From: Salinicola sp.
GTDB lineage: Bacteria > Pseudomonadota > Gammaproteobacteria > Pseudomonadales > Halomonadaceae
Assembly (NCBI GenBank): GCA_002695065.1
Contig: NZNW01000014.1
Span: 1-43,015, forward strand
Direction: 5' to 3'
DNA: 43,015 nucleotides
Part shown: positions 12,938 to 30,357 of the stretch, in pieces
Position numbering within the stretch: the stretch's first letter is position 1
Layout: every line of letters starts with the position of its first letter
The notes under the pieces: generated by a model
Database searches by the model: none
What the model was told of the DNA's origin: nothing
Seen by the model: the letters and a program-made list of their open reading frames with translations, nothing else
Position numbers and translations under genes: made by a program

Positions 12938-13050
12938 GGCGGTGTCCCGTGTTCAGTTATAGCGACATTACGGCATAAGCGGCGTGGTGTTAAAGGAGGG
13001 CGATGAGGTGGCCGTCCGGCTGTCGGTTAAGCGATGTTAGTTCGACATTT

Positions 13051-13065
13051 TGATCAAATCGAGCA
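13051..13065. promoter_or_regulatory. Operator-like palindrome, site 1 before tctB (two mismatches)
   Basis: TGATCAAATCGAGCA matches the island consensus TGATCG-WWW-CGATCA except at two positions. It is the site nearest the deoR gene (114 bp from its start codon) and could mediate autoregulation. The spacing to the next site is 133 bp centre to centre. Confidence 0.5.
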
Positions 13066-13183
13066 TTACCGGAAGAGATATTTCCTGCCTCTTTCGCGGT
13101 CGGGTAGTGCATCAGTCCGTCTCTTTTTACCAGCAAGGTCGCGATTCGCGTTGTCCCTTAGCCAAGAGTCTTATTGCCACTCA

Positions 13184-13198
13184 AGATCGAATCGATCA
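13184..13198. promoter_or_regulatory. Operator-like palindrome, site 2 before tctB
   Basis: AGATCGAATCGATCA is one base from the perfect palindrome found at 24550 and 30223. Its centre is 41 bp from that of site 3, close to four helical turns, so both lie on the same DNA face. Confidence 0.7.
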
Positions 13199-13224
13199 TT
13201 TTTGGTTTGCTCTTTGCGCTTTTA

Positions 13225-13239
13225 TGATCGTTTCGATCG
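13225..13239. promoter_or_regulatory. Operator-like palindrome, site 3 before tctB, overlapping a possible -10
   Basis: TGATCGTTTCGATCG is one base from the consensus. The preceding bases give TATGAT (13223-13228), a good -10 element that overlaps the site, although no good -35 is evident. Overlap of operator and -10 would fit repression of the tctB operon, whose start codon is about 40 bases on. Confidence 0.65.
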
Positions 13240-13280
13240 AAAACAGGCGGGGAGCGATTCGAGAATATCCGAAGCCGTCG

Positions 13281-13751
13281 ATGGTAGCTGAAGCGAGAGA
13301 CGATGTGATTCGAAGAAAGACGGATTGCCAGCTTGCGCTGTTCCTGATGCTGTTTTGCGCTTTTGCCGCATGGCGCACGACGCTGATTCCAGCTTCCGGT
13401 ACCGGCACCCGGGCGGGACCGGACTTCTTTCCCTGGCTGGCGATCATTGGCATCGCCGTGCTGGCACTGGCGCTACTGCTGAGGGGACTCAGGACCTCGC
13501 CCCGGCCCAAGCCAGAAGCGGGCGCCGGACGCATCGGCTACGGCGTGTTGAGTCTGTTTGCCGTCCTGATGGTGGCCTATGCCGCCACCTTCGAACGGGT
13601 CGGGTATCTGCCCAGCACGATCGTGATGTACGTGATCGGCATGCTGCTGCTCAAGGAGCGGCGGGTGGTGCATTTCCTGCTGGTGCCCGTGGCCGTCGTC
13701 CTGGGGGTCTATTTCGGCTTTACCGGACTGCTCGATGTCTATCTGCCTTGA
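13281..13751 (+). CDS. tctB: Tripartite tricarboxylate transporter small membrane subunit TctB
   Basis: A 156-aa small integral membrane subunit with about four hydrophobic segments (at roughly 17-32, 49-68, 85-105 and 120-150) and the family GPDFFPWL stretch after the first loop. With TctA and the binding protein TctC it forms a sodium- or proton-coupled transporter for carboxylates. The frame is open from 13050, but residues before the ATG at 13281 are unlike the family and the resulting length is normal. A GTG at 13305 is an alternative start. It is the first gene of the operon tctB-tctC-tctA-larA-like, downstream of three operator-like palindromes. Confidence 0.85.
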   Translation: MVAEARDDVIRRKTDCQLALFLMLFCAFAAWRTTLIPASGTGTRAGPDFFPWLAIIGIAVLALALLLRGLRTSPRPKPEAGAGRIGYGVLSLFAVLMVAYAATFERVGYLPSTIVMYVIGMLLLKERRVVHFLLVPVAVVLGVYFGFTGLLDVYLP

Positions 13752-13821
13752 GGATGTCGAGGCACCGGAGGTAAGTCGTAACCGACGACCGACATATCGA
13801 TAACAACGCTAGGAGACGATG

Positions 13822-14799
13822 ATGAAAACGCAGTGGATGAATGCACTGGCACTGGCCGCGGGGATGACCGGCCTGTTCACGGGGTCGGCGACCGCGGCGG
13901 ACTATCCGGTCAGGCCGATTCAGGTGATCGTGCCCTACTCGGCCGGCGGAGGGACGGACCTTTCCGCGCGGATCATGGCCGACACGATCAAGAAGTATCT
14001 GGACAAGCCCATGATCGTGCGTAATCAGCCCGGCGGGGGCGGCTCCATCGGTACCAGTTCGATACTGCACGCGCGCCCCGACGGTTACACGCTGGGGACG
14101 GGCGCTCAAGGGCCCCTGGCGATGCTGCCGCACTATGGTGGCGTCGACTACAGCATCGACGACGTCGAGTTTCTTGCGCTGATGGGGCGCAACCTGATGG
14201 TTCTGGCAGCCTGTCAGGGCGCGCCGTTCGATGATGCCCAGGGCTTTCTCGACTACGCCGAGGCTCATCCGGGTGAGGTGAGGGTCGGTAACTCCGGTGC
14301 CGGCGGAGCGAACCACATTGCCATGGAGGGGCTGGCGAATGCCGCCGGCCTCGAAGTGAAGAGCATGCCTTTCGGCGGTTCCTCCGCTGCCGTGACCGCC
14401 TGTGTCGGCGGACATATCGACGGTGTCGTGGCGTCACCGGCCGAGGTGCTGCCGCAAGCAGACAACGGGGGGCTCGAGCCCATACTGGTGATGGAGGACA
14501 AGCGCATCGACGTGCTGCCGGATACGCCCGTTCCCAGCGAGTTCGGCATCGACTTCGCCTGGTCATCCTGGAAAGGCGTCATCGCGCCCAAGGGGCTGCC
14601 GGAAGCGGTCAAGAAGACGCTGAGCGAGGCGCTGAGGAAGACTTTCCAGGACGAGGATTTTCTCTCCCGCATGAAGGATATGGGGGAATTCGTCGACTAT
14701 CGCACAGGCGACGCCTACCGCGAGCTGGCGGAGAAAGATTCGAAAACGGCGGAAGCCATCATCCGCAAGCTCGGCATGTATGGCGTCAACCAGCAGTGA
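13822..14799 (+). CDS. tctC: Tripartite tricarboxylate transporter periplasmic binding protein TctC
   Basis: A 325-aa periplasmic solute receptor of the TctC/BUG family. It has a signal peptide (cleavage likely after ATAA near residue 26) followed by the typical start YPVRPIQVIVPYSAGGGTD. Other family blocks are NQPGGGGSIG, the ligand-loop GNSGAGGANHIA and the C-terminal WSSWKGVIAPKGLP. These proteins bind mono-, di- or tricarboxylates; the ligand cannot be named from sequence. AGGAG at 13811-13815 is six bases from this ATG and only three from the ATG at 13819, so I prefer 13822. It is 70 bp downstream of tctB. Confidence 0.93.
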   Translation: MKTQWMNALALAAGMTGLFTGSATAADYPVRPIQVIVPYSAGGGTDLSARIMADTIKKYLDKPMIVRNQPGGGGSIGTSSILHARPDGYTLGTGAQGPLAMLPHYGGVDYSIDDVEFLALMGRNLMVLAACQGAPFDDAQGFLDYAEAHPGEVRVGNSGAGGANHIAMEGLANAAGLEVKSMPFGGSSAAVTACVGGHIDGVVASPAEVLPQADNGGLEPILVMEDKRIDVLPDTPVPSEFGIDFAWSSWKGVIAPKGLPEAVKKTLSEALRKTFQDEDFLSRMKDMGEFVDYRTGDAYRELAEKDSKTAEAIIRKLGMYGVNQQ

Positions 14800-14874
14800 C
14801 TCAGGGCGTTTCCCGCACGGCGACAGGCCGTGTGGGGGCGTCGCGGTATCGACCAGTCGTTCGGAAGCCTAGTC

Positions 14875-16359
14875 ATGGATATTTCACCGCACGTGCTCGC
14901 GGTCTTCGACCCCGAAGTGTTATGGACCATCGCCCTGGGGACCCTTGGCGGCATCGTCATCGGTGCACTGCCCGGCTTGACGGCGACCATGGGGGTGGCG
15001 CTGCTGATTCCGCTGACCTTCGGCATGGCCCCGATACTGGGATTGAACATGCTGATCGGGATCTATATCGGGGGAATCTACGGCGGCTGCGTCTCGGCGA
15101 TCCTGCTGCGCACGCCGGGCACGCCCTCGTCCGCCGCGACGGTGCTGGACGGTTACCCGCTGGCGCAAAAGGGTGAAGCCGGCAAGGCACTGGGCATGGC
15201 GACCATCGCCTCGTTCGTGGGCGGTATCATCGCTGCCGTGGTGCTGGCGGCCCTGGCCCCGCAACTGGCGACCCTGGCGCTGAAATTCGGGCCGGCGGAG
15301 TATTTCGCGCTGGCCGTCTTCGGTCTCACGATTATCGCCAGCCTGTCCCAGGATATCCTCAAGGGCGCTATCGCCGGTCTGGCCGGCATCCTCATCGGCT
15401 GCGTGGGCGCGGACCCGATCAGCGGCATCTCGCGCTACACGTTCGGGATCTCGGGCTTCGCCTCCGGATTCGCCTTCACCCCGGCACTGATCGGCCTGTT
15501 CGCCCTCTCCGAGGTGTTCTCGCAGATCGAGAAGATCCTGAGCGACCGCGTGGAGCGGATGAAGGTGTCGGGTATCTGGCCCTCGCGCGCGGACCTCAAG
15601 GGATCTTTGACCACCATGGTGAGAGGCTCGGTGATCGGGACCTTCATCGGCATCATCCCGGGGACGGGGTCGGGCACGGCTTCCTGGATCAGCTACAACG
15701 AGGCGCGTCGCACCTCGAAGACGCCGGAGAAGTTCGGCACCGGCCACATGCCGGGGATCGCAGCGACGGAGAGTGCCAACAATGCGGTCTGTGCCGCGGC
15801 CTTGATCCCGTTGCTGGCATTGGGGATCCCCGGCGACGTGGTCACAGCGGTGCTGATGGGCGGTCTGATGATCCAGGGCCTAGCACCCGGTCCGATGCTG
15901 TTCCAGCAGCATCCCGACATCGTCGTCGGCATCTTCACCGGGACTTTCGTGGCGACGATCTTCATGCTGGTGTTCGGCCTGTTGGGCATTCGCTTCTTCA
16001 CCCAGATACTGCGAGTCCCGCGGCGCATCCTGACCCTGGCGATCGTGGTGTTCTGTTTCGTGGGCGCCTACTCGATCAATCTCAACGTCGTCGACCTCTA
16101 CACCATGGTCGGATTCGGCGTGCTGGGTTACTTCATGCATAAATTCGGTTTCTCCCAGGCGGCGCTCTGTATCGCACTGATCCTGGGGCCAATGGCGGAG
16201 TCCAACCTGCGGCTCGGCCTGATGAGCGCCGATGACAATGTCGGCGTGCTGCTATCCGGCCCGATCACCGCGACGTTCCTGATCCTGGCGGCACTGTCGC
16301 TGCTGTTGCCGCTCTATCGAAGCTATCGCGGTCGCCGGGTAGCGGTTGCCGCCCAATGA
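14875..16359 (+). CDS. tctA: Tripartite tricarboxylate transporter large membrane subunit TctA
   Basis: A 494-aa polytopic subunit with about eleven or twelve hydrophobic segments. TctA motifs are present: GTLGGIVIGALPGLTATMG near residue 20, the GGIYGGCVSAILLRTPGTPSS signature near 65, and the repeat GIIPGTGSGTASWISYNEARR near 260, which mirrors it in the second half. The ATG at 14875 has GGAAG eight bases upstream; the frame is open back to 14830 without family similarity. It completes the transporter with tctB and tctC and is followed after 37 bp by a LarA-superfamily gene, which suggests that the transported acid is an isomerase substrate. Confidence 0.93.
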   Translation: MDISPHVLAVFDPEVLWTIALGTLGGIVIGALPGLTATMGVALLIPLTFGMAPILGLNMLIGIYIGGIYGGCVSAILLRTPGTPSSAATVLDGYPLAQKGEAGKALGMATIASFVGGIIAAVVLAALAPQLATLALKFGPAEYFALAVFGLTIIASLSQDILKGAIAGLAGILIGCVGADPISGISRYTFGISGFASGFAFTPALIGLFALSEVFSQIEKILSDRVERMKVSGIWPSRADLKGSLTTMVRGSVIGTFIGIIPGTGSGTASWISYNEARRTSKTPEKFGTGHMPGIAATESANNAVCAAALIPLLALGIPGDVVTAVLMGGLMIQGLAPGPMLFQQHPDIVVGIFTGTFVATIFMLVFGLLGIRFFTQILRVPRRILTLAIVVFCFVGAYSINLNVVDLYTMVGFGVLGYFMHKFGFSQAALCIALILGPMAESNLRLGLMSADDNVGVLLSGPITATFLILAALSLLLPLYRSYRGRRVAVAAQ

Positions 16360-16396
16360 CAGTCGAGCCGATGTCGCATCGCGTCCTGGAGCGGTC

Positions 16397-17713
16397 ATGA
16401 AGCCAAGCTACGCCAGACTGGTCGAGGCGGTTCCGCTGCCACCGATGGCGCTGGTGCGCCAACGGTTCCAGGCCACGGATGTCGATAGCCCGACAGCGGC
16501 AGTGCGGGCGGCCATCGATGCCGCCGACATCGTCGACGAGCGCGTCAGGCCCGGCATGTCGATCGCGCTGACGGTCGGCAGTCGCGGTCTCGCCAATCTG
16601 CCGGAGCTGGTGAGAGCCATCGTCGATGCGCTGCTGGCCCGGGGTGCCAAGCCCTTCATCGTGCCGTCGATGGGCAGCCATGGCGGCGCCACCGCGGAGG
16701 GGCAGCGCCGCGTGCTGGCGCAACTCGGCGTGACCGAGGAGAGCGCAGGCTGCGAGATTCGCTCCAGCATGGAAACGGTGGCGCTGGGCACGCTCGACAA
16801 CGGGATGTCGGTGCGTATCGACCGGCTGGCTTTCGAGGCCGACGGCATCGTGCTGTTCAATCGCATCAAGCCACACAGCGCCTTTCGCGCCGACAACGAG
16901 AGCGGGCTGGTCAAGATGCTCTCGATCGGCCTGGGCAAGCAGTCCGGCGCCGAGAACTGCCACGCCTGGGGGTTCCATTACGTCGGCCGGTTCATCGTGG
17001 AGATGGCGAGGGTCAAGCTACGAACCTGCCGGATCCTGTTCGGGATCGGCACGCTCGAGAATGCCTACGATCGTCTCTCCCGAGTCGTCGTATTGCCACC
17101 GGAGACGCTGATCGAGGAAGAGCGGATCCATCTTGCCGAGGCGATGCGCAACATGCCGCGTCTACCGCTGGGCCCGCCCGGAGACGCGATGGCCTCGGGG
17201 CCTCTCGACGTGCTGGTCGTGGATGAGGTCGGCAAGGAGTACTCGGGCAGCGGCATGGACCCCAACATCACCGGGCGCCCTTCGACCACGGCGATCAGCG
17301 GTGGTCCGGACGTGTCCCGGATCGCGGTGCTTGACGTCAGCGACAAGAGCGAGGGCAATGCCAATGGCGTGGCACGTGCCGACGTCATTACCGAGCGGCT
17401 GTTCCAGCGCTTCGACCGGGAAAAGGTCTATACCAACTCGCTGACATCGGGCGTACTGATCGCCGCCTCTATTCCCCTCGCCATGCCCGACGATCGCACA
17501 GCGATCCAGGCCGCGATCAAGACCTGCGGCTCCCACGATCCGGACGCGATCACGTTGATGCGGATCCCCAACACGCTTCATCTCGAGTATCTCTATGCCT
17601 CGGAAGCGCTGCTGCTGTCGCTGCGAGGGCGACCGGGGATCGAGATCGTGCACGAACCGCGCCCCATGCGTTTCGATGACCAGGGCCGGCTGCTGGATTC
17701 CTGGCCGCACTGA
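16397..17713 (+). CDS. LarA-superfamily nickel-pincer isomerase (divergent paralogue)
   Basis: A 438-aa divergent relative of lactate racemase LarA. The residues that hold the nickel-pincer nucleotide and do acid-base catalysis are recognisable by order and spacing: His95 (SMGSHGGAT), His160 (RIKPHSAFR), Lys173 (SGLVKMLSIGLGK) and His189 (ENCHAWG). They match His108, His174, Lys184 and His200 of Lactobacillus LarA. Members of this superfamily racemise or epimerise 2-hydroxy acids. The ATG has GGAG five bases upstream. It ends the tct operon, while the cofactor enzymes LarB, LarC and LarE are encoded in another operon of the same island, next to a second, canonical LarA. The substrate is unknown. 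Confidence 0.8.
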   Translation: MKPSYARLVEAVPLPPMALVRQRFQATDVDSPTAAVRAAIDAADIVDERVRPGMSIALTVGSRGLANLPELVRAIVDALLARGAKPFIVPSMGSHGGATAEGQRRVLAQLGVTEESAGCEIRSSMETVALGTLDNGMSVRIDRLAFEADGIVLFNRIKPHSAFRADNESGLVKMLSIGLGKQSGAENCHAWGFHYVGRFIVEMARVKLRTCRILFGIGTLENAYDRLSRVVVLPPETLIEEERIHLAEAMRNMPRLPLGPPGDAMASGPLDVLVVDEVGKEYSGSGMDPNITGRPSTTAISGGPDVSRIAVLDVSDKSEGNANGVARADVITERLFQRFDREKVYTNSLTSGVLIAASIPLAMPDDRTAIQAAIKTCGSHDPDAITLMRIPNTLHLEYLYASEALLLSLRGRPGIEIVHEPRPMRFDDQGRLLDSWPH

Positions 17714-17763
17714 GTCTCCCGAGGACCTCTCCGTCCGGTCATGGCCGGCGACAGGAACGCGCG

Positions 17764-17804: not shown

Positions 17805-17806
17805 GC

Positions 17807-18751
17807 TCAGGCCGACACCGGATGGCGAGGTGCGCGACCATCGATGACGGCGATCACGTCATCGACGCAGCTCTGGCTCAGGGTCGTCAGCGCGTTCTCG
17901 GTATAGCCGGCGACATGCGATGTCGCGATGACGTTGTCGAGCGCGAACAGCGGATGCTCCGAGGCTGGTTCGATCTCGAAGGCATCGACCGCGGCGGCGG
18001 CGATCGTTCCCTGGGTCAGGGCATCGTAAAGCGCCGACTCATCGACGATCCCGCCACGCGCCGCGTTGATCAGCACCGCCGTCGGCTTCATCGACCCGAG
18101 CCGGGCGGCATCGATCAGGTGTCGCGTCTGTTCGGACAGGCCGACGTGAAGCGTGAGGTAGTCGGCGCGACGGCAGAGTTCGTCCAGCGGCATCAGTTCG
18201 ACGCTCAGCGCGCTGGCAACGTCGGCATCCGCAAAGGGGTCATGAGCGACCAGGGTCATGTCGAACCCGGCCGCACGGCGGGCGACGGCCTGGCCGATGC
18301 TGCCGAGGCCGACGATGCCTAACGTGGCACCGTGCACGTCGCGGCCGAAGTGGCGCGGCCACTCGCCTCGCTTGGTGGCGGTATCGATCCGCGGGATGGC
18401 ACGGGCCGACGCCATCAGCAGGGCGAAGGTGAAGTCCGCCACCGCCTCGCGGTTGGCGGCGGGCACGTTGGTGACGGTCACGCCGTGCCGTGCGGCGGCG
18501 GCAAGGTCGATGTTGTCGACGCCGACGCCGTGCTTCGCGACGATCTTCATCGCCGGTAGCGCGCCCAGCACACGATCGCTGATGGCGTTGAAGGCGACGA
18601 TGGCGCCGACGGCGCCGTCGGCACGCTCGATGAAGGTGGTTTCGTCGATGTCCGCCGGCAGCGCGACCAGTTCGATGTCGCGAGCCTCCAGCGATTCGAT
18701 CGGCGCACGGGAATACCTGGCGAAAGAGGGCGAGGTACAGACGATCTTCAT
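17807..18751 (-). CDS. D-isomer-specific 2-hydroxyacid dehydrogenase
   Basis: A 314-aa NAD(P)-dependent dehydrogenase of the SerA/GhrB superfamily, interconverting 2-oxo acids and D-2-hydroxy acids. The nucleotide-binding motif GLGSIG lies at 148-153, followed by His-Asp at 170-171. The catalytic residues are Arg232 (INAARGG), Glu261 (AFEIEP) and His279 (TSHVAGYT). There is no ACT domain, so it is not a full-length feedback-regulated SerA. GAGGA lies eight bases before the ATG. It is the last gene of the NRAMP-like operon, 11 bp after the ltnD-like gene. It may reduce or oxidise a 2-oxo acid product of the pathway. Confidence 0.87.
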   Translation of the reverse strand: MKIVCTSPSFARYSRAPIESLEARDIELVALPADIDETTFIERADGAVGAIVAFNAISDRVLGALPAMKIVAKHGVGVDNIDLAAAARHGVTVTNVPAANREAVADFTFALLMASARAIPRIDTATKRGEWPRHFGRDVHGATLGIVGLGSIGQAVARRAAGFDMTLVAHDPFADADVASALSVELMPLDELCRRADYLTLHVGLSEQTRHLIDAARLGSMKPTAVLINAARGGIVDESALYDALTQGTIAAAAVDAFEIEPASEHPLFALDNVIATSHVAGYTENALTTLSQSCVDDVIAVIDGRAPRHPVSA

Positions 18752-18762
18752 GAGCCGGGTCC

Positions 18763-19665
18763 TCAGAACAAGGTCAGTTGATGGCGCGCGGCAACGATGT
18801 CGGAGAGCTCGGGCACGAACTTCTCGCCGTCGCCCTGGGATTCCGCGCTGGCGTAGAGATCGCGGACGGCCCTGGCGACGCCGGCCTCCACGTTCATCGC
18901 CTCGGCCAGCGAGGCCAGGTAGCGCGTGTCCTTGTGAGCGTTGGCCAGGGTGAAGCGATGGGCGTTGCGGTCGCGCTCCAGCACGTACTGGAAGAAGGTC
19001 TGGTAGAAGCCGCTGTCCATGCGCGATCCCCGGATAACGCTGTCGAAGGTCTGCGGCGTGATGCCGGCCTTGGCACCGATGGTGAGCGCTTCGGCGAAGA
19101 TCGCCCCGTAGCCCATGGCGAGGAAGTTGTTGAGCAGCTTCATGGTGTGGCCAGCGCCCACCGGGCCGACGTGGATGATCTTCGACGTCCAGGTCTCGAG
19201 AACCGGCCTCACGCGTTCCAGCACGCCATCATCCGCGCCCACGATCGCCTGCAGTTCGCCGGCGTCGGCCTGGGTCGGGGTGCCGCCAAGGGGGGCGTCG
19301 ATCAGCGTGATGCCGTCGGCGGCGAGCGATTCGGCCAGGCGCCGGGTCAGCGTCGGTTCGGAGGTGGAGCAGTCGACGATCACCAGGTCCTGTCGGTTGG
19401 CGCGGCGGGCGCCGGCGCGGATGCCGTCCTCGCCGTCGATGATTGCCTCGACCTGCGGCGCGCCTGTCACGCAGAGAAACACGATATCGCACTCGGCGCC
19501 GAGTGCGGCGGCATCATCTACCTCCATCGCACCCTCGGCACGGAGTGCCTCGATCGGCTGACGGTTGCGGTGGGCCAGCGCCTTGAGCGGGTAGCCTGCC
19601 TTGAGGATGTTGCGGGCGATTCCGGCGCCCATGAGCCCGAGTCCTGCGAATCCGATGGTTGGCAT
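18763..19665 (-). CDS. LtnD/GarR-type 3-hydroxyacid dehydrogenase family protein
   Basis: A 300-aa beta-hydroxyacid dehydrogenase. It has the N-terminal dinucleotide fold GLGLMGAGIARN (residues 8-19), the substrate loop DAPLGGTPTQADAGEL near 123-138, and the catalytic Lys176 in GAGHTMKLLNN. Related enzymes include tartronate-semialdehyde reductase (GarR, GlxR) and L-threonate or D-erythronate 2-dehydrogenases (LtnD, DenD). With a DUF1537 kinase and PdxA2 in the same operon, a role in four-carbon acid-sugar oxidation is likely, but the exact substrate is not visible. AGGAG is six bases before the ATG. The gene is 36 bp after pdxA2. Confidence 0.85.
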   Translation of the reverse strand: MPTIGFAGLGLMGAGIARNILKAGYPLKALAHRNRQPIEALRAEGAMEVDDAAALGAECDIVFLCVTGAPQVEAIIDGEDGIRAGARRANRQDLVIVDCSTSEPTLTRRLAESLAADGITLIDAPLGGTPTQADAGELQAIVGADDGVLERVRPVLETWTSKIIHVGPVGAGHTMKLLNNFLAMGYGAIFAEALTIGAKAGITPQTFDSVIRGSRMDSGFYQTFFQYVLERDRNAHRFTLANAHKDTRYLASLAEAMNVEAGVARAVRDLYASAESQGDGEKFVPELSDIVAARHQLTLF

Positions 19666-19701
19666 GTCGCTCTCCTGCTTTGGGAATGGGTGAATTCGAT
19701 G

Positions 19702-20712
19702 TCAGGTCGGCAGCGCGGTTCGACGGCTGGCGAGTTCGACGGCCTGGCGTAGCGCCTCGATCAGGCTGCGCTCGTCGGCGATGCCCTTGCCGGCAATATC
19801 GAACGCGGTGCCATGGTCGACCGAGGTGCGAACCACCGGCAGGCCGACGGTGACGTTGACGCCCGCCTCGAGCCCCATCACCTTGACCGGGCCATGGCCC
19901 TGGTCGTGGTACATCGCCACGACACAGTCGAAGTCTCCGCGGCCGGCACGGAAGAACAGCGTGTCGGCGGGCAGAGGGCCTTCGACGTTCCAGCCGCGCT
20001 CGCGCAACGCCTTGATCGCCGGGACGATTTTCTCTTCCTCTTCGCCATAGCCGAACAGCCCGTTCTCGCCGGCGTGGGGATTGATGCCGCAGACGGCGAT
20101 GCGCGGGTCGTGAATGCCGGCCCGGGCCAGCGTTTCGTGGGCGCGCTCGATGGTCCGCGTGACCAGCTCCGGCTCGATGCGCGCGATGGCATCGATGATG
20201 CCGATATGGGTGGTGACGTGGATCACTTTCATCTTCGGCGTCACCAGCATCATCGAGACTTCCTCAGTGCCGGTCAGGTGCGCCAGCAGTTCGGTGTGGC
20301 CCGGGAAGAGGTGGCCGCCGGCATGCAGCGCCTCCTTGTTGAGCGGCGCGGTGCAGATCGCGTCGAGTTCGCCGGCCTCGATCAGTTCGACAGTCCTGGC
20401 GATGTAGCGATAGGCGGCATCGCCGGCTATTCTGGAGACCTTCCCCCAGGGCAGGTCAGCGGGGATCAGCCCGAGATCGATACACTCGAGGGTGCCGCGT
20501 TCGAACCGTGCCTGGGCGGGGGTCTCCACCACATGCAGCTCGAGCGTCGAGCCGACGATCTCCATCGCCTGGCGCAGGCGTCCGGCGTCGCCGATGACCA
20601 GCGGCCGGCAGCTGTCGTGGACGGTGTCCTGGGCCAGTGCCTTGACGATGATCTCCGGCCCGACGCCGGCGGCATCGCCCATGGTGATGCCGATGACGGG
20701 ACGATCGGTCAT
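19702..20712 (-). CDS. pdxA2: 4-phospho-D-threonate 3-dehydrogenase-like PdxA2
   Basis: A 336-aa PdxA-family metal- and NAD-dependent dehydrogenase/decarboxylase. It has the family start GITMGDAAGVGPE, the phosphate-binding PGHTELLAHLTG near 137 and the three metal-binding His at 169 (TTHI), 213 (NPHAGE) and 269 (MYHDQGH). PdxA itself makes the pyridoxine precursor from 4-phosphohydroxy-threonine. The PdxA2 branch, encoded beside DUF1537 kinases, oxidises and decarboxylates 4-phospho-threonate to dihydroxyacetone phosphate. Here the start overlaps the kinase stop by four bases (ATGA), implying translational coupling and favouring PdxA2. GAGGA lies seven bases upstream. Confidence 0.88.
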   Translation of the reverse strand: MTDRPVIGITMGDAAGVGPEIIVKALAQDTVHDSCRPLVIGDAGRLRQAMEIVGSTLELHVVETPAQARFERGTLECIDLGLIPADLPWGKVSRIAGDAAYRYIARTVELIEAGELDAICTAPLNKEALHAGGHLFPGHTELLAHLTGTEEVSMMLVTPKMKVIHVTTHIGIIDAIARIEPELVTRTIERAHETLARAGIHDPRIAVCGINPHAGENGLFGYGEEEEKIVPAIKALRERGWNVEGPLPADTLFFRAGRGDFDCVVAMYHDQGHGPVKVMGLEAGVNVTVGLPVVRTSVDHGTAFDIAGKGIADERSLIEALRQAVELASRRTALPT

Positions 20713-22905: not shown

Positions 22906-22950
22906 GCGAGTCTCCTCGTGGAAAATGAGAGTGAAAGCATGCGTCGATCG

Positions 22951-24321
22951 CTACTGGGCGACCCTGGCGATGGCGCCCGCCAGATTGGTCAGGATGGCGT
23001 AGAGCGACCAGAGGCCGATGAGGGAGATGACACCCAGGATCAGGGTTTCCCACCAACGGTTGGCGTAGTCGTCGAGCATGAAGCGACGGCTGGTGGTCAG
23101 GATCAGGATGCCGATCAGAATCGGCGGCAGTACCGTGGCCGTGATCACGCTGGTACCGAAGACGCTCAGATAGACGAGATTGGGCGCGAAGGGCAGCGTG
23201 ATGAACAGTGGGGCGACGATGAACAGGCCGATCAGGGCTGGACGATAGCGCGGGTCCTGCTCGGGGCGCATCTCGCCGTCTCTCTTTCCGGTCGCCAGGT
23301 GGAGCCCGTTGAACATCAGCTTGGCCAGCCCGTGCGCCTGGGCGGGGAAGCTGGTGAAGGCGGCCATGAACAGGCTGACCCAGAGCAGAGTCGGTCCCCA
23401 GTCGCCGACTGCCATCTGCATCATCGTGGCGAGATCGGTCTCGCTGGAAACGGTCACGCCCGTTCCACGCAGCGTCTCCGCCGCCACGATCCAGAACAGC
23501 GCGTTGATGATCAGCAGCGGCAGCATGCCCGCGATCAGATCCAGCCGCTGGATCTTGCGGTGGGCCGGGCGATTCCAGCCACGATCATCCATGAAGTAGG
23601 GGTAGAGCAGGTTGATCGCCGAACCACCGATGGTGCCGATGGTCGCCACCGCGATGAACAGCGCATCGAAGGGACCGTTGTCGGCCGGAACCGCGAACGT
23701 CAGGCCGCTGAGCAGGGCGGGAAAATCGATGTGACCGATCCGGAACAGGGCGTAGACGAACGAACCGATGATGATCACGGAAGCGACCCGCGCCAAGCGC
23801 TCGAGCCACTTGAACGCGTTGCGGCCCGCCAGCATGACCAGCGACAGCAGCATGACGATGAGACCCATCAGCGGCAGGCCGAATCCATCGGGCAGCGTCA
23901 AGCCGGTGGATTCGATCAGGTGCACCAGCGCGACGGCGCAGGCGCGCATGAAGCTCATCTGGATGATCAGGCCGTAGACCAGCATCAGGATGGCGAAGAA
24001 TGCCGGAAAGCCCTTCCACAGGCGCTGGTAACCGGCCATCAGCGACGAGTCTTCGAACCGGTTGGCCAGCTTGTACTTGGCGATGGCCGAGATCATGCAG
24101 TAGCGGGCGGCCAGGGCGACCACCAGGGTCCACATCAGCGCGTAGCCGTAGTTGGCGCCCGACACGGTGGAACTGACCAGGTCGCCGGTTCCCAGAAAGG
24201 CCATGGCGAGTACCAGCCCGGGCCCGATGCTGCGCAGGTAGTCGCCAAGCGTCGTCGGCAGTCTGGGCGGCAAGTCGGCGTCCAGGTCGCCGGCGATTCG
24301 GCTCGATTGAGGAGTTGCCAT
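22951..24321 (-). CDS. NRAMP-family-like membrane transporter with altered metal-site motifs
   Basis: A 456-aa protein with about eleven hydrophobic segments and an NRAMP/MntH-like layout (IGPGLVLAMAF start, SGANYGYALMWTL after helix 1). The metal-coordinating motifs of true NRAMP transporters are not kept. The helix-1 DPGN position reads Gly-Thr-Gly-Asp (44-47), and the helix-6 MPH region reads GTIGGSAINLLYPY (229-241) with no Met-Pro-His. So Mn, Fe or Ni transport should not be assumed. As first gene of an acid-sugar operon it may carry an organic acid or another ion; both are inference. Two good operator-like palindromes lie in the 240 bp upstream. The start at 24321 has AAGAG about 10 bases before it. 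Confidence 0.8.
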   Translation of the reverse strand: MATPQSSRIAGDLDADLPPRLPTTLGDYLRSIGPGLVLAMAFLGTGDLVSSTVSGANYGYALMWTLVVALAARYCMISAIAKYKLANRFEDSSLMAGYQRLWKGFPAFFAILMLVYGLIIQMSFMRACAVALVHLIESTGLTLPDGFGLPLMGLIVMLLSLVMLAGRNAFKWLERLARVASVIIIGSFVYALFRIGHIDFPALLSGLTFAVPADNGPFDALFIAVATIGTIGGSAINLLYPYFMDDRGWNRPAHRKIQRLDLIAGMLPLLIINALFWIVAAETLRGTGVTVSSETDLATMMQMAVGDWGPTLLWVSLFMAAFTSFPAQAHGLAKLMFNGLHLATGKRDGEMRPEQDPRYRPALIGLFIVAPLFITLPFAPNLVYLSVFGTSVITATVLPPILIGILILTTSRRFMLDDYANRWWETLILGVISLIGLWSLYAILTNLAGAIARVAQ

Positions 24322-24336
24322 GTCATCGGCTCTTTT

Positions 24337-24351
24337 TGATCGCAGTGAGCA
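24337..24351. promoter_or_regulatory. Weak operator-like half-site before the NRAMP-like gene
   Basis: TGATCGCAGTGAGCA keeps one full half-site (TGATCG) and a partial second half (GAGCA). Its centre is 21 bp from that of the perfect site at 24358, two helical turns, the same spacing as the pair before kdgT. Confidence 0.4.
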
Positions 24352-24357
24352 TAAAAT

Positions 24358-24372
24358 TGATCGTTACGATCA
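24358..24372. promoter_or_regulatory. Operator-like palindrome before the NRAMP-like operon
   Basis: TGATCGTTACGATCA has two perfect 6-bp half-sites around a 3-base AT centre. It lies 37 bases upstream of the start codon of the NRAMP-like gene, where a repressor would block the promoter or early transcription. Confidence 0.72.
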
Positions 24373-24549: not shown

Positions 24550-24564
24550 TGATCGAATCGATCA
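24550..24564. promoter_or_regulatory. Perfect operator-like palindrome overlapping the larC stop
   Basis: TGATCGAATCGATCA is identical to the site at 30223. Its last three bases (24562-24564) are the larC stop codon on the minus strand. It is 192 bp centre to centre from the site at 24358, so a loop between the two over the NRAMP-like promoter is possible. Confidence 0.68.
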
Positions 24565-25809
24565 AGGTCGGGGCCGGCGCTCCCGGGATCGGTGCCAGGC
24601 CGCCAGGATGACTTGCTGGACCTCGACGAACGGCAGGCGGTGGCGGAAGGCGAGCGCGCTCACATCCTCGAATTCCGGTGTGGTCCGCAACGTCTCTCCC
24701 TCGAGAGAACCGATCTTGACCCTGGCGCTTCCCAAGGGGGTTTCCACCGTTTCGATCCGGCGCTCCAGGATACGTCGACTGGTGTCGTGACGGCGCACGC
24801 CGAACGTCGGCGTCTGGCGCAGCATCAGCAGTTCGAGCGCCTCCGCCCGGTTCAGCGGCGCCAGCACCGTCACCAGATGGCCCGGCCGGGACTTTTTCAT
24901 GGTGACGGGGGTGAAGAAGACGTCGAGGGCGCCGGCCTCCAGCAGCAGCTCGATCACGTGACCGAGCTGCTCCCCGGTGGCGTCGTCGAGCTGGCAGGCC
25001 AGCACGGCGATGGTCTCTCTGCCCTGATCGGGTACCGCTGTTTCCATCGAAATCACGCGCAGCACGTTGGGATGGGGGAAGTCGCGGTTGCCGGCACCGT
25101 AGCCGATCTCGACCGGGGTACCCGCCGCAGCGGAGCGGAACGAGTCGACCAGGGTGGCCAGGAACGCGGCGCCGGTGGGTGTGGTCAGCTCGCCCGTGAC
25201 ATCGGGCTCGAAGGTGGATAGCGGCACGCCCTTGAGCAGTTCCAGTGTCGCCGGCGCCGGGATCGGAAAGCGGCCATGGGCCATGCTGACCACGCCGTAT
25301 CCCACCGGCACCGGGGTTGCGGTGATCGTCTCGACATCGAGGGCTTCCAGTGCCAGGCAGACGCCGAGGATGTCGATGATCGAGTCCATCGCGCCCACTT
25401 CGTGCAGATGAACCTCGGCGGGATCGATTCCATGGATTCGCCCTTCGGCTTGAGCAATGGCGGTGAAGATCGCCGTCGCCCGGCGCCTTACGCGAGGAGG
25501 CAGATCGGCATCGGCGACCATTGTCAGAATATCTCCCGCCCGGCGGTGAGGGTGGCCGGCGTGGCCGTGCACATGCTCATGACCGTGATCATGAGGATGA
25601 ACGCCACCAGCGGGCTCGAGCGCGATGTCGAGCAACCGCGCGCGGATACCGCAGCGATCCACCGGCCGGGTCTCGAGTGCGAACGGATCGATCGGCAAGC
25701 GGCGCAACGACGCCGCGATCCCTTCCAGATCGGCGCCGAGGTCCACCAGCGCCGCCAGCAGCATGTCGCCGGCGATGCCGAAGGTGCAGTCGATATGAAG
25801 CGTCTTCAT
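24562..25809 (-). CDS. larC: Nickel insertion enzyme for the pincer cofactor, LarC
   Basis: LarC (415 aa) inserts nickel into the pyridinium bis-thiocarboxylate mononucleotide to complete the nickel-pincer nucleotide of LarA enzymes, using CTP. The N-terminus MKTLHIDCTFGIAGDM is typical. A His-rich loop at about 71-88 (HPHDHGHEHVHGHAGHPH) probably handles nickel. The block EVHLHEVGAMDSIIDILG and the TPTGAAFL segment follow, and the C-terminal CTP-binding domain contains MKKSRPG. Here it is one continuous frame, unlike L. plantarum, where larC needs a frameshift. The ATG overlaps the larB stop by four bases. It is the last gene of kdgT-larA-larE-larB-larC. Confidence 0.93.
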   Translation of the reverse strand: MKTLHIDCTFGIAGDMLLAALVDLGADLEGIAASLRRLPIDPFALETRPVDRCGIRARLLDIALEPAGGVHPHDHGHEHVHGHAGHPHRRAGDILTMVADADLPPRVRRRATAIFTAIAQAEGRIHGIDPAEVHLHEVGAMDSIIDILGVCLALEALDVETITATPVPVGYGVVSMAHGRFPIPAPATLELLKGVPLSTFEPDVTGELTTPTGAAFLATLVDSFRSAAAGTPVEIGYGAGNRDFPHPNVLRVISMETAVPDQGRETIAVLACQLDDATGEQLGHVIELLLEAGALDVFFTPVTMKKSRPGHLVTVLAPLNRAEALELLMLRQTPTFGVRRHDTSRRILERRIETVETPLGSARVKIGSLEGETLRTTPEFEDVSALAFRHRLPFVEVQQVILAAWHRSRERRPRP

Positions 25810-26579
25810 GAGCTGCGGGGCCCTGTTGAGGCGGATTCGGCGGGTCCCTCGGCGGCGGCTGCCGAACTGTCGAAGCTGGCGGGCCGCGGATCGGGCCCCC
25901 GCTCGAGCAGCGAGAGAATGCTGGCGGCCTGCCAGGCGGCGCCGAAACCGTTGTCGATATTGACCGCGCTCATGCCGGTGGCGCACGCCGAGAGCATGCC
26001 GAGCAGGGCGGTAATGCCCTGCAGGCTGGCGCCGTAGCCCACCGAGGTCGGTACCGCGATCACCGGGTTGCGCACCAGCCCGGTGATCACGCTGGGCAGC
26101 GCGCCTTCCATGCCGGCAATCACAATCAGCACATCGGCCCGGGTCAGTGCCTCGCGGTGGGCCAGAAGTCGATCGAGCCCGGCGACGCCGACATCGTTGA
26201 GTCGGGCGACGTTGGCCCCCAGCCAATTGAGCGTGCCAGCCGCCTCCTCGGCCACGGGCAGGTCCGAGGTGCCGGCGCAGATCACTGCCACGGTGCCGGG
26301 GAGACGCTTCGGCGAGGCACCCCACGAAAGCAAACGGCTGATCGGATCGTAGTGGCCGTGGGGATGATCCTGAAGCACGCGTTCGGCACGCTCGGCATCG
26401 AGTCGGGTGACCAGCGCCCGCTGGTGACGATCGATCAGGCGGGCGACGATGGCGCTGATCTGATCGGCCTGCTTGCCCTCGCCGAACACGACTTCGGGGA
26501 CGCCGTTGCGAGCTTCGCGAGCGTGATCGACGCGGGCGAATCCCAGGTCGGAAATGGGGCGGTCAGGGCGTTCGGTCAT
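25806..26579 (-). CDS. larB: Pyridinium-3,5-biscarboxylate mononucleotide synthase LarB
   Basis: LarB (257 aa) starts nickel-pincer cofactor synthesis: it carboxylates the pyridinium ring of nicotinic acid adenine dinucleotide and hydrolyses the phosphoanhydride. The C-terminal half resembles PurE (AIR carboxylase), with CAGTSDLPVAEEAA near 101, the GMEGALPSVITGLV loop near 155 and PTSVGYGAS near 177. The N-terminal VPEVVFGEGK is typical for LarB. The last 30 residues are low-complexity Ala/Ser/Pro and are probably disordered. It lies 22 bp after larE and overlaps larC by four bases. Confidence 0.93.
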   Translation of the reverse strand: MTERPDRPISDLGFARVDHAREARNGVPEVVFGEGKQADQISAIVARLIDRHQRALVTRLDAERAERVLQDHPHGHYDPISRLLSWGASPKRLPGTVAVICAGTSDLPVAEEAAGTLNWLGANVARLNDVGVAGLDRLLAHREALTRADVLIVIAGMEGALPSVITGLVRNPVIAVPTSVGYGASLQGITALLGMLSACATGMSAVNIDNGFGAAWQAASILSLLERGPDPRPASFDSSAAAAEGPAESASTGPRSS

Positions 26580-26601
26580 GCAATTTCCCGTCGAACTAAA
26601 T

Positions 26602-27510
26602 TCAAGGCAGCAGTCGATTCATGCTGCCGCTGCGGTAGCCGGCCAGATCCAGCGTCACCCAGGCGTATCCCAGCGCCGTGAGTTCCGCGACCAGCCGGTC
26701 GTGATGTTCGAGCACCGTCGCCATGTCCTGGGGTTCGACTTCGATCCGCGCCAGTTCGCCATGATGGCGCACGCGGAGCTGGCCGATGTTCAGAGCTCTG
26801 ACGCGGCGCTCGGCTTCGGCGATCCGCTCGAGCTTCTCCAGCGTGATACGTTCGCCGTAGGCGACCCGCGACGACAGGCAGGCCAGCGAAGGCTTGTTCC
26901 AGGTCGGTAACCCCATGGCCTGGGAGAGTTCGCGGATCTCGGCCTTGTAGAGTCCGACCTCGTGCAGCGGTCCGCGCACGCCATATTCGCGGGCCGCCTG
27001 GGTGCCGGGGCGATGTTCGCCGTCGTCGTCGGCGATCAGGCCGAAGACGATATTATGGAATCCGGCGTCGACCATGATCGGCGCCAGATGGGTGAACAGG
27101 CCGGATTTGCAGTAGTAGCAGCGGTTGGCGTCGTTCTCGGCGTAGCCGGGAATGGCGATCTCCGAGGTCTCGATGACCCGGTGCGGCGCCTCCAGACGCC
27201 GGGCCAGTTCGCGGGCGGCATCGAGTTCCTCGAACGGATAGGATTCCGAGTCGGCGGTGACCGCCAGGACGCGTTCCCGGCCCAGCGTCTCCAGCGCGAT
27301 GGCCAGCAGGAAGGTGCTGTCGACGCCACCGGAGAACGCCACCACCACGTCGCCCATCTCGCGAAGCACGTGACGCAGGCGTTCCAGCTTGGCCTCGAGT
27401 TCGGCGCCCTGGGTCACGTCGGCGGTCAGCGACACGCTGTGCGGGCGTGACGGCGCCGCCGCGTCCACGCTCAAGGCGTCGATCCGTTCGCTTCGAGCCA
27501 TCGAGGTCAT
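26602..27510 (-). CDS. larE: Pincer cofactor sulfur transferase LarE
   Basis: LarE (302 aa) adenylates the carboxylates of the pincer precursor and inserts sulfur. It is a PP-loop ATPase with SGGVDS at 60-65. Besides the conserved Cys211 (PSLACLSSR), equivalent to the sacrificial Cys176 of L. plantarum LarE, it has RCYYC with Cys131 and Cys134. A three-cysteine set is reported to carry a [4Fe-4S] cluster in other LarE proteins (for example Thermotoga maritima), so this enzyme may be catalytic rather than sacrificial. GGAGG lies seven bases upstream of the ATG. About 35 N-terminal residues precede the usual start of homology. It is 53 bp downstream of larA. Confidence 0.93.
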
Positions 27511-27563
27511 TGGGTCCCTCCCGTCGTGTGTCCGTCGACCGGACGTTCAGTCATCGACACAGC

Positions 27564-28826
27564 TCAGTCATCAACATAGGGTACCGTCAGCGGTCCCAGC
27601 GGCATCACGGCAATCGACATTTCCTCGCCGTAACGTGCTTTCAATGCCTGCAGCGTTTCGGCGATGTCATGGACGGGCTCCAACAGCGCGGCGCGCGCCT
27701 GATCGTCGCTCAGTGTCGAATAGAGCATCACGTCGGCCCAGCTCTGGATGACCGCCTGCTTCTGCACCTGCCACTGGTCGAGCATGGCGAATTCCGGATC
27801 CTCGATCATCTCGAGCAGGGCCTGGGGTGAATCGGCCATGGCCAGAATCTCGGCGAACTTGCCGTGGTCGGGGATGCCATCCGAGCACTCGCAGGCCATC
27901 AGGATGGTGCCGCCGCGCTTGACGATCTTGTGCGCGGCACTCATGCCCTTGACTGCCTGATAGAGGTTCTGGTCCAGCGGATAGCCGGAATTGCCGGTGA
28001 TCACCACGTCGAAACGCCGATCGGCTTTCACCATCGCGTGCTCGAGTTCATGTTCGCAACCCTGGCGGTGCGCCTCGGTGAGATCGCCGGCAAACACCCG
28101 GGTGATCGCCTTGTCGCGATTGAGCGTGACGTTGAGCATGAAGTGCGGCGGACACAGGGCGTTGATCTCGCGGGTCATCGCCTGCAGCGGATTGTCGTCC
28201 ATGTTGCCCCAGGTCGAACGCGGGTCGCCGATCATGCGGGCATTATGGAAAGTCATGATGGTTTCGAGCCCGGCGATGCCCGGCATCACCCCTTTGGGTC
28301 CGCCGGAGAAGCCAGCGAAGAAATGGGGTTCGATGAAGCCGGTGACGATACGGAAATCGGCCTCGACCCAGCGACGGTTGAGCCAGGAAGGGCAGCCGAA
28401 ACTGTTGTCGCCGACGTTGACCAGTTCATCGTAGTTGTCGCAGTGGTTGTTGATGATCTCGATGTGATCCACCACCCAGTCGCCCAGCATGCCGCGGAGC
28501 TCCTCGACCGTCTGGTCGCGGTGGGTGCCGGTGCCGTTGATGATGACGAAATTCTCGTGCGGCACGTGATCGAGCGTTTCGATCAGCAGCGGCACCAGCA
28601 GGTGGTTGGGCGTAGGCCGGGTGATGTCGCTGATCACGATGGCGACGCGGTCGCTGGCCTTGACCATCTCCTTGAGCGGTGGGGTGCCGATCGGCGTCTC
28701 GAGCGCTTCGCGAACCCCGGCCTCGGGATTCACCATGGCATGTTGCGTCGGCGGTTCGACGACGAAAGCGTCGTCCGGCAAGTCGAGTGCCAGCTCACCC
28801 TTGCCGTAGAGCAGAGAGGTTTTCAT
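27564..28826 (-). CDS. larA: Nickel-dependent lactate racemase-type enzyme LarA
   Basis: LarA (420 aa) racemises 2-hydroxy acids by hydride transfer to the nickel-pincer nucleotide. All key residues are present, each six positions before the L. plantarum number: His102 (GTGTHRDQT), His168 (IEPHFF), Lys178, the cofactor attachment site (SGGPKGVMPG), His194 (TFHNARM), and Tyr288/Lys292 (YPLDQNLYQAVKG). Nothing in the sequence proves lactate as substrate: relatives act on malate, aryl-lactates and sugar acids. A TGGAG site precedes the ATG. It follows the KdgT-type permease gene by 82 bp and is followed by the three cofactor genes, a self-sufficient unit. Confidence 0.95.
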   Translation of the reverse strand: MKTSLLYGKGELALDLPDDAFVVEPPTQHAMVNPEAGVREALETPIGTPPLKEMVKASDRVAIVISDITRPTPNHLLVPLLIETLDHVPHENFVIINGTGTHRDQTVEELRGMLGDWVVDHIEIINNHCDNYDELVNVGDNSFGCPSWLNRRWVEADFRIVTGFIEPHFFAGFSGGPKGVMPGIAGLETIMTFHNARMIGDPRSTWGNMDDNPLQAMTREINALCPPHFMLNVTLNRDKAITRVFAGDLTEAHRQGCEHELEHAMVKADRRFDVVITGNSGYPLDQNLYQAVKGMSAAHKIVKRGGTILMACECSDGIPDHGKFAEILAMADSPQALLEMIEDPEFAMLDQWQVQKQAVIQSWADVMLYSTLSDDQARAALLEPVHDIAETLQALKARYGEEMSIAVMPLGPLTVPYVDD

Positions 28827-28908
28827 GCAGGCTCCAGGTTGACGGCGCTTTCGCGCCGCCAGGGAATAGCTTGGGTTTCAGCATGCCACGATATCGACGT
28901 GACGTCGC

Positions 28909-30033
28909 TCAACCGTTGCGCGCCGTATTCAGGTCCTCGTCGGCACGGCGATGGGGTTCGTCCTCGAGGGTGCCGTCGATACCGCGCCTCTTTTGCCAGC
29001 GGTCGACCAGCATCACGGCGATCGGCCCCAGAATGGCGGTCGTCAACGTGGCGATCGAGATCTGCGACGTGGCGATGTTGACCAGGTCGTGATAGCTCTG
29101 CGCCTCGGCCGCGCTCATCATGCCCGAGTTGGCGGCCACCGCCGCCGCGGCAGCGATGGCGGCCGGCGTGCCGGCGGCGTTGCCTGCCGTGGTCGCTTCG
29201 GACACCGGCGCGATGACACTGGGCTCGCGGAACAGCCGGAACACCAGGATACCCGCGCCACCGGTGAGAATCGTGGTCATGACCCCCAGCAGCAGACCGG
29301 CGCCCACGACCTCGGGATTGAAGAAGGCCGCCAGGTTCATGTTGGCGCCCAGGGCAAAGGCGAAGAAGGGGACCGGCAGTATCTCGCCGGGCTTGAGGAA
29401 GGTGCGGATGTCTCGATCGAGATTGCCCAGCAGCATCCCCAGCGCGATCGGCAGTAGCACGGCGATGAAGGCGATCACCGGGAACTGGGAGCCCAGCAGA
29501 CCCAGCGACATCAGGGTGAAGAACGGGCCATCGTTGAGTGACAGGATCGCCACCGCGCCAGTGTCCGAGCGATTGCCGTACTGGCTGGTCAAGGCCGCAT
29601 ACATGCCGCCGTTGCCGTTGGTCATGGCGGCGATGATCGCCACCGTCGAAAGACCCAGCAGGCCGTCGATCGGATCGAACATCAGCCCCAGGCCCACGCC
29701 CACCGCCAAACCGGTCAGGTATTTGGCGGTGACCAGCAGGGCGCCTTTCTTGAGCGCCTTGCCCCCCACGCGCAGGTTCATCTGGCTACCGGAGCAGAAC
29801 AGGAACAGCGCGATCAGTACCAGCGCGCCATCCTTGAACAACTCTTGGGAAAAACCGCCTATACGCAGGAATTCGTACTGGCCGCTGTCGGTTTGCCCTG
29901 CCCCCAGCCACTGCAGGATCGCGGTGATCCAGGACAGGTGAAGCTGATCGATGGTATTGAGCGCGGCACCGAAGATGAGGGGAACCACCATCAGGCCTCC
30001 GGGGACCTTCTGGATCGTGGCGAGCAGTTTCAT
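28909..30033 (-). CDS. 2-keto-3-deoxygluconate permease family transporter (KdgT type)
   Basis: A 374-aa inner-membrane proton symporter of the KdgT family, with about ten hydrophobic segments. Typical features are the start MKLLATIQKVPGGLMVVPL, the GSQMNLR stretch near 110, the AAMTNGNGGMYAALT segment near 165 and SLNDGPFFTL near 195. Known members import 2-keto-3-deoxygluconate, but a lar-linked homologue may carry another hydroxy or sugar acid. The chosen ATG at 30033 has GGGAG seven bases upstream; the frame is open to 30111 without family similarity. It is about 50 residues longer than E. coli KdgT, through an Ala-rich insert near 300 and a charged tail. It is the first gene of the lar operon. 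Confidence 0.88.
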   Translation of the reverse strand: MKLLATIQKVPGGLMVVPLIFGAALNTIDQLHLSWITAILQWLGAGQTDSGQYEFLRIGGFSQELFKDGALVLIALFLFCSGSQMNLRVGGKALKKGALLVTAKYLTGLAVGVGLGLMFDPIDGLLGLSTVAIIAAMTNGNGGMYAALTSQYGNRSDTGAVAILSLNDGPFFTLMSLGLLGSQFPVIAFIAVLLPIALGMLLGNLDRDIRTFLKPGEILPVPFFAFALGANMNLAAFFNPEVVGAGLLLGVMTTILTGGAGILVFRLFREPSVIAPVSEATTAGNAAGTPAAIAAAAAVAANSGMMSAAEAQSYHDLVNIATSQISIATLTTAILGPIAVMLVDRWQKRRGIDGTLEDEPHRRADEDLNTARNG

Positions 30034-30201
30034 GGGTTGACTCCCGTGCGCCATGCGTGGCGAGTGGTTCGCTAGGGAAACCCTGCATAAATGCCTGCGC
30101 GAGCAAATCACTTCTTGTGCGGTGCCGCTTCGCTTCGAGCCTGTGCTCCGTACGCCTTGTGCTTTACACCACCGCTTGCCGATTTATTCAGCGCTTCCAG
30201 A

Positions 30202-30216
30202 TGATCGAAACGATTG
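30202..30216. promoter_or_regulatory. Operator-like palindrome before kdgT, site 1
   Basis: TGATCGAAACGATTG is two bases from the consensus palindrome. Its centre is 21 bp from that of the perfect site at 30223, exactly two helical turns, so two dimers could bind side by side. Confidence 0.6.
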
Positions 30217-30222
30217 ACAATT

Positions 30223-30237
30223 TGATCGAATCGATCA
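30223..30237. promoter_or_regulatory. Perfect operator-like palindrome before kdgT, site 2
   Basis: TGATCGAATCGATCA is identical to the site at 24550. It lies about 190 bases upstream of the kdgT start in the AT-richer part of the 324-bp gap between kdgT and radD. The rest of that gap shows no gene. Confidence 0.72.
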
Positions 30238-30357
30238 TTAATGGCAATTCAACTAAAGATGTAGAGGGAGTGGGCGCGCGTCTTTGATCGCTGCAGTCAA
30301 AGTGCTGTGCCGTAGGCCGCGATCGAGCCGTTCCCTCGGCCGCGCGACCTGAGTACC

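Follow-up and report, generated by a model that had tools for sequence, protein, structure and literature searches.

A 43,015-nt window (contig NZNW01000014.1, positions 1-43,015, of Salinicola sp., assembly GCA_002695065.1) was analyzed for a 15-bp palindrome that recurs beside the gene of a DeoR-family regulator and within the adjoining island. The island comprises three putative transcription units, headed by tctB, an NRAMP-like transporter gene and kdgT, respectively (Table 1). The sequence-only reading of this DNA had placed eight copies of the palindrome in three gaps, and all eight were present there. As it had described, the copies at 24550 and 30223 are one perfect 15-mer, the copy at 24358 is a perfect palindrome with another centre (TTA), and pairs are spaced by 41 (13184-13225), 21 (24337-24358) and 21 bp (30202-30223). 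Elsewhere in the window, 0 or 1 mismatch was reached nowhere, in agreement with its remark that no further site of like quality was seen.

Table 1. Regulator gene, palindromic sites and transcription units of the island. Positions are those of the window; mismatches of the sites were scored against TGATCG-NNN-CGATCA.
Feature	Position	Strand	Basis or remark
DeoR-family regulator, proposed binder of all sites	12170..12937	-	HTH_DeoR and DeoRC profiles
Putative operator TGATCAAATCGAGCA	13051..13065	.	deoR/tctB gap; 2 mismatches; aligns with sites in four relatives
Putative operator AGATCGAATCGATCA	13184..13198	.	1 mismatch; aligns with sites in four relatives
Putative operator TGATCGTTTCGATCG	13225..13239	.	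1 mismatch; 41 bp from 13184; weaker copies align in four relatives
Weak putative operator TGATCGCAGTGAGCA	24337..24351	.	2 mismatches; 21 bp from 24358
Putative operator TGATCGTTACGATCA	24358..24372	.	Perfect palindrome, 0 mismatches, centre TTA
Distal putative operator TGATCGAATCGATCA	24550..24564	.	0 mismatches; 192 bp from 24358; overlaps larC stop codon
Putative operator TGATCGAAACGATTG	30202..30216	.	2 mismatches; 21 bp from 30223; retained in several Salinicola relatives
Putative operator TGATCGAATCGATCA	30223..30237	.	Perfect; adjoins conserved block with ATTG(CC) before kdgT
Unit 1: tctB, tctC, tctA (tripartite tricarboxylate-type transporter) and group-22 nickel-pincer isomerase	13305..17713	+	Open reading frames; tct labels from the sequence-only reading; tctB start by eye
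Nickel-pincer isomerase, NCBIfam group 22	16346-17713	+	488 bits, cut-off 400
Unit 2, from 24321 downward: NRAMP-like transporter, DapA-like protein, DUF1537 kinase, PdxA2-like dehydrogenase, GarR-like reductase, D-2-hydroxyacid dehydrogenase	17807..24321	-	Open reading frames and profiles
Unit 3, from 30111 downward: kdgT, larA, larE, larB, larC	24562..30111	-	Pfam KdgT, Lar_N/LarA_C, NAD_synthase, AIRC, Ni_insertion

The genome (4,682,890 bases, 153 contigs) was scanned with pattern searches, whose counts are valid for the consensus with up to 1 mismatch only. The A/T-centred motif TGATCGWWWCGATCA had 3 perfect places in the 4.68-Mb genome, and all 3 lay inside the island; the probability of three perfect sites landing in 17.3 kb by chance was ~5e-8. 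When up to 1 mismatch was allowed, 13 genome places were found, 5 of them in the island. The eight others look coding, as six overlap open reading frames (ORFs) with coding base composition; by eye, one of the eight (L019) was placed inside a PfkB-like sugar-kinase ORF and another (L020) near the 5' end of an ORF resembling an ATPase gene. With any centre, TGATCGNNNCGATCA had 14 perfect genome places (3 in the island) and 188 with up to 1 mismatch, so that rarity does not extend to the half-sites by themselves. Within the window, 98 matches with up to 3 mismatches were counted against 35 ± 6 in shuffles, and sites with 2-3 mismatches are therefore unconvincing by themselves. The weak site at 24337 has 4 mismatches when the centre is restricted to A/T.

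Co-occurrence was examined across 151 Halomonadaceae genomes, source genome included. DeoR orthologs were found in 24 of these; the 23 outside the source were 58-95% identical to the window protein, and the next homologs, among the matches listed, reached at most 38% identity. The DUF1537 kinase (E <= 1e-25) was found in 22 of the 24 DeoR-positive and 0 of the 127 DeoR-negative genomes, and LarA (E <= 1e-80) in 13 of 24 and 0 of 127, respectively; these co-occurrences cluster phylogenetically, so that the counts are less independent than the Fisher test assumes. The two DeoR-positive genomes without a kinase at the cut-off were G037 and G016; in the latter, a kinase of 31% identity adjoins deoR.

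Perfect A/T-centred sites were counted in the same genomes. The 24 DeoR-positive genomes held 22, of which 16 fell within the island or deoR stretches and 6 elsewhere; at the background rate, ~0.04 would be expected in the stretches. Outside the stretches the rate was 0.25 per genome in DeoR-positive genomes, similar to the 0.32 per genome (41 sites) in the 127 DeoR-negative ones. Perfect sites outside the stretches were considered as possible additional targets of the regulon. Thirty perfect-site loci were listed (L090-L119), 3 of them within deoR stretches (L104, L107 and L114). All 30 overlap stop-free stretches of at least 100 codons, a weak test, as 7 of the 8 island sites do too. In three regulator-less genomes (L116-L118) the perfect sites coincide at a single position within a gene identified by eye as rpoD, a case in which codon choice can produce the 15-mer; the site of L119 is at a distinct place.

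TGAT/GATC palindromes are frequent among bacterial operators, and the sites could in principle belong to another regulator, global or local, beside which the DeoR gene stands by coincidence. Such an assignment is very improbable: perfect sites outside deoR stretches remain at background level with or without the regulator in the genome, the three outside sites examined closely were the single rpoD-like place, and the sites go with a DeoR ortholog and a kinase gene in Halomonadaceae, in most Pseudomonas loci and in nearly all Burkholderiales loci (described below).

Site positions were compared in 23 stretches of relatives on the island side of deoR (up to 20 kb each) and 12 on the opposite side. 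In 22 of the 23, cluster genes were present and, irrespective of their order, sites with up to 2 mismatches occupied the gaps ahead of the operons; G037 was the exception. The 12 other-side stretches had 1 such site in total. The most widely shared genes were the DUF1537 kinase and PdxA2, with tct, lar, kdgT and the NRAMP-like gene variable. In 20 of the 23 stretches deoR and the cluster share a strand, with deoR downstream (>1 kb away in some), and divergent tct genes as in the window occurred only in L055 and L066. In two Kushneria-type genomes (G015 and G072) the kinase-PdxA2 operon lies ~235 and 249 kb from deoR, respectively, with lar and kdgT staying beside deoR. Each unlinked kinase operon (L219 and L220, 18 kb each) had exactly two sites with up to 2 mismatches, both in the gap before the kinase gene and spaced by 21 bp in one and 116 bp in the other, which means that the motif is not explained by mere linkage to deoR. 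The sequence-only reading had tied the motif to the island and to a divergent deoR; its link to the adjacent DeoR gene held, and its confinement to the island or to a divergent arrangement did not.

For a site list, gaps were picked by hand from the island-side stretches, with L077 (G037) omitted and the window added, and 80 sites with up to 3 mismatches were obtained. The profile of those with up to 2 mismatches was TGATCGAWTCGATCA, with A/T-rich flanks and a C/T alternation at position 5. A layout of pairs 21 or 30-33 bp apart, plus a further site ~110-310 bp off, recurred. One relative (L063) has a better copy of the 24337 site at the same 21-bp spacing (6983/7004), and repeats the 192-bp distal distance (7004/7196) with no lar genes in its 20-kb stretch. 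In an alignment of five species, all three deoR/tctB-gap sites have counterparts, which for 13225 are weaker copies. The block beside the kdgT operator was kept in 8 of 8 aligned Salinicola-type sequences (TTGCC in 5, TTGCT in 1, TTGT in 2) and may hold a -35 element.

Depth was assessed by a wider scan of named genomes, which yielded 146 pattern stretches and 96 relatives; 80 loci were kept, at identities down to 52%. By name these were 26 Halomonadaceae (overlapping with the family set), 19 Pseudomonas and 35 Burkholderiales; orthologs in the latter two groups were 52-63% identical. Site positions were viewed for 70 of the 80 loci, the other ten being Salinicola-type loci from genomes already covered. 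A site with up to 2 mismatches was present somewhere in 26/26 Halomonadaceae, 19/19 Pseudomonas and 35/35 Burkholderiales loci, compared with means of 1.25, 0.93 and 1.31 loci (largest 9, 9 and 13) for 150 permuted palindromes. At up to 1 mismatch the counts were 17/26, 9/19 and 29/35, and the permuted means 0.04, 0.05 and 0.12 (largest 2, 3 and 3), in the same group order. When spacers of 0-10 were compared over the 80 loci, spacer 3 gave 31 perfect matches; TGATCG-N7-CGATCA came second with 7 perfect occurrences. In Pseudomonas a site stood directly before the operon-initial DapA-like gene in 14 of 19 loci. In Burkholderiales, sites precede kdgT, kinase or pdxA2 genes, with deoR divergent or downstream alike. 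In two Pseudomonas loci (L145 and L149) the interval from the DapA-like gene to deoR contains genes for an iron-type alcohol dehydrogenase and a sodium:solute symporter; further products are a BNR-repeat protein plus a short-chain dehydrogenase in L145 and a major facilitator superfamily (MFS) transporter in L149.

For the palindromes, chance or a role as terminators, Dam/SeqA-type GATC pairs or FNR-like boxes could be proposed, as a terminator scan flags two of the sites, each perfect site holds two GATC, and the half-sites are similar to TTGAT/ATCAA. We consider these explanations barely credible, given that permuted palindromes are nearly absent from the loci, that the sites lie upstream of genes, that C/T alternates at position 5 with one GATC often lost, and that the spacing is unlike that of an FNR box. 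A terminator role for the two flagged operators was dismissed because of their place upstream of genes, which their counterparts in relatives share.

Taken together, the palindrome is very probably the operator of the DeoR protein encoded at 12170-12937 and of its orthologs, through which the three units would be controlled as one regulon. The sequence-only reading had proposed that each unit has sites and that all belong to a single regulon of the adjacent DeoR protein; this proposal is supported by the genome-wide rarity of the A/T-centred motif, the co-occurrence of regulator and target genes, the placement of sites at promoter positions despite changes of gene order, the unlinked kinase operons, and conservation in other orders. 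Besides the phylogenetic clustering of the counts, several observations weigh against it. In G037 the DeoR match (L048/L077) spans residues 57-240 only; it is without the helix-turn-helix (residues 1-56), no cluster genes adjoin it, and it is perhaps a regulator decayed after loss of its targets. Distal spacings in the site list of the relatives and window showed no common helical phase. In L066, larE-larB-larC had no site with up to 2 mismatches beyond larE, the expected promoter position. Five Pseudomonas loci (L149, L151, L153, L154 and L156) share TGATCGACACCATCA, which has 2 mismatches and lies away from the operon start, and give no support; in these loci the operon start falls at the stretch end. 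In Burkholderiales, L175 had no site immediately before the kinase gene. Finally, a consensus sigma-70 scan of the three gaps gave no promoter, so that an overlap of site and promoter is conjectural.

The regulator was classified with profile searches. The N-terminal DeoR helix-turn-helix (PF08220) scored 55.5 bits (cut-off 21) and the DeoRC sensor domain (PF00455) 126.7 bits (cut-off 31.8), and the motif SEAT.RRDL was invariant among 16 aligned orthologs of the 24 found. Ten NCBIfam equivalogs matched, GlpR-type models included, and none did so at its cut-off; the YgbI-type model NF040890 gave 87.6 bits (cut-off 400). No match by sequence was found in the PDB at E <= 0.001. The protein thus belongs to a DeoR group without an equivalog name, for which a concrete operator is now predicted from Salinicola to Pseudomonas and Burkholderiales. 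GlpR of E. coli, a DeoR-family protein, controls a glycerol-phosphate regulon through the half-site TGTTCG with inverted CGAACA and a consensus spacer of 4. Its half-sites are close to TGATCG/CGATCA of Salinicola, and it differs in its regulon and in the spacer, which is 3 here.

Two characterized systems are closer in gene content. In E. coli K-12, the DeoR-family protein YgbI represses ygbJKLMN. It resembles the Salinicola case in being encoded next to a cluster with a DUF1537 protein (putative 3-oxo-tetronate kinase) that it represses, with a binding site in the divergent gap; as described it has a single target (PMC8464067). It is 30% identical to the Salinicola DeoR over 229 residues, and the ygb cluster has putative L-threonate dehydrogenase, isomerase and decarboxylase genes in place of PdxA2. 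At up to 3 mismatches, nothing like TGATCGWWWCGATCA occurred in the E. coli ygb region (L120, 12 kb), and this locus was rejected as a bearer of the same operator. In Brucella, VdtR is the DeoR-family repressor of an otnK (DUF1537) erythronate/threonate cluster with several sites in one promoter; the likeness is in DeoR-family control of a DUF1537 kinase cluster through multiple sites, and the difference in the ltnD/otnK gene set (PMC10580937). D-erythronate or L-threonate activates the Brucella pathway, yet VdtR DNA binding in vitro was altered by neither acid (PMC10580937).

DeoR control of DUF1537 clusters is thus known in principle. The operator itself had no match: no paper was found for four forms of the 15-mer in the literature searched, and in that literature the operator, the make-up of the regulon (nickel-pincer enzymes, PdxA2 and NRAMP-like protein) and its spread appear undescribed.

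The sequences themselves show the sites, how rare and how conserved these are, and that they occur together with this regulator. From the site layout and the domain content we infer DNA binding, repression rather than activation, looping, a ligand and a substrate as follows. A DeoR-type dimer would bind the 15-bp TGATCGAWTCGATCA with its A/T-rich flanks. Paired operators near the operon start (21 or 30-33 bp, or two or three helical turns) suggest cooperative binding by phased pairs, with the protein probably blocking the promoter, and the distal site (~110-310 bp) suggests looping between sites. The predicted targets of repression are the tct-isomerase unit, the NRAMP-like/DUF1537 kinase/PdxA2 unit, the kdgT-lar unit and deoR itself. 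Release would follow from a sugar acid entering the pathway, probably of the four-carbon threonate/erythronate type. DeoR sensor domains usually sense phosphorylated sugars. A phosphorylated intermediate from the DUF1537 kinase step is the most likely ligand and the best guess, because the free acids left VdtR binding in vitro unchanged (PMC10580937).

Activation by the DeoR protein, or repression at some promoters and activation at others, is an unlikely alternative that would fit the common distal sites ~110-310 bp off and the existence of activators in the family (NCBIfam names an L-fucose operon activator); the proximal sites adjoining the conserved block before kdgT argue for repression, as do YgbI and VdtR, both characterized as repressors of DUF1537 clusters (PMC8464067, PMC10580937).

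The products of the three units were compared with family models. LarA (27564-28826) reached the NCBIfam lactate racemase model NF033504 (536 bits, cut-off 460). The kinase stayed below equivalog level (best model D-threonate kinase, 179 bits, cut-off 450), as did the PdxA2-like dehydrogenase, with 346 bits against a cut-off of 583 for D-threonate 4-phosphate dehydrogenase. The PdxA2-like protein did reach the general pdxA model TIGR00557 (372 bits, cut-off 290), and the DapA-like protein scored 231 bits with the dapA model, above its cut-off of 206. The sugar-acid reading of each single gene is therefore only tentative. Kinase and PdxA2 belong to families of the D-threonate pathway, which makes this a candidate substrate assignment only. 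On the best reading, the system would control a DUF1537/PdxA2 (tetronate-type) pathway, joined in Salinicola and Kushneria by a nickel-pincer racemase operon. Units 2 and 3 are each predicted to form a single transcript, from the close gene spacing in unit 2 and the gene spacing in unit 3. In unit 3, AIRC was taken as LarB, Ni_insertion as LarC and, by context, NAD_synthase as LarE.

The lar genes of Lactiplantibacillus encode the nickel-pincer lactate racemase LarA with LarB, LarC and LarE, and the same accompaniment is seen here (PMC7583248, PMC11770544). In Salinicola, unlike Lactiplantibacillus, lar is joined to kdgT and shares its operator with the DUF1537/PdxA2 unit. Some LarA enzymes epimerize 4-deoxy analogues of these acids, and threonate and erythronate are not among the tests listed in the available part of that source (PMC11770544). 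It is possible, and we put it forward tentatively as a rather doubtful proposal, that LarA (perhaps the group-22 isomerase too) feeds the DUF1537-kinase/PdxA2 route, with D-erythronate converted by C2 epimerization to D-threonate, which would then be phosphorylated and oxidized to dihydroxyacetone phosphate, and with a single DeoR operator governing the whole route. If true, this link would give the nickel-pincer cofactor a new physiological role; with the operator, a natural role of the racemase becomes testable. The operator likewise lets genes with unassigned substrates (NRAMP-like, DapA-like, group-22 isomerase and KdgT-like carriers) join one metabolic programme.

The NRAMP-like transporter (22951-24321) has GTGD and GSA where its nearest solved relative, 10ky, has DPGN and MPH (HMMER alignment). 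These positions are presumably the usual NRAMP metal-binding motifs, which would thus be missing. What the protein carries may not be a metal ion, and the sugar acid is one possibility. The putative regulon includes two nickel-pincer racemase superfamily proteins, LarA and the group-22 isomerase, along with a single larB/larC/larE cofactor set. In L066 (G149), larC, larB and larE are present and a LarA ortholog was not found in the genome at E <= 1e-80; the nickel cofactor may there serve the group-22 isomerase.

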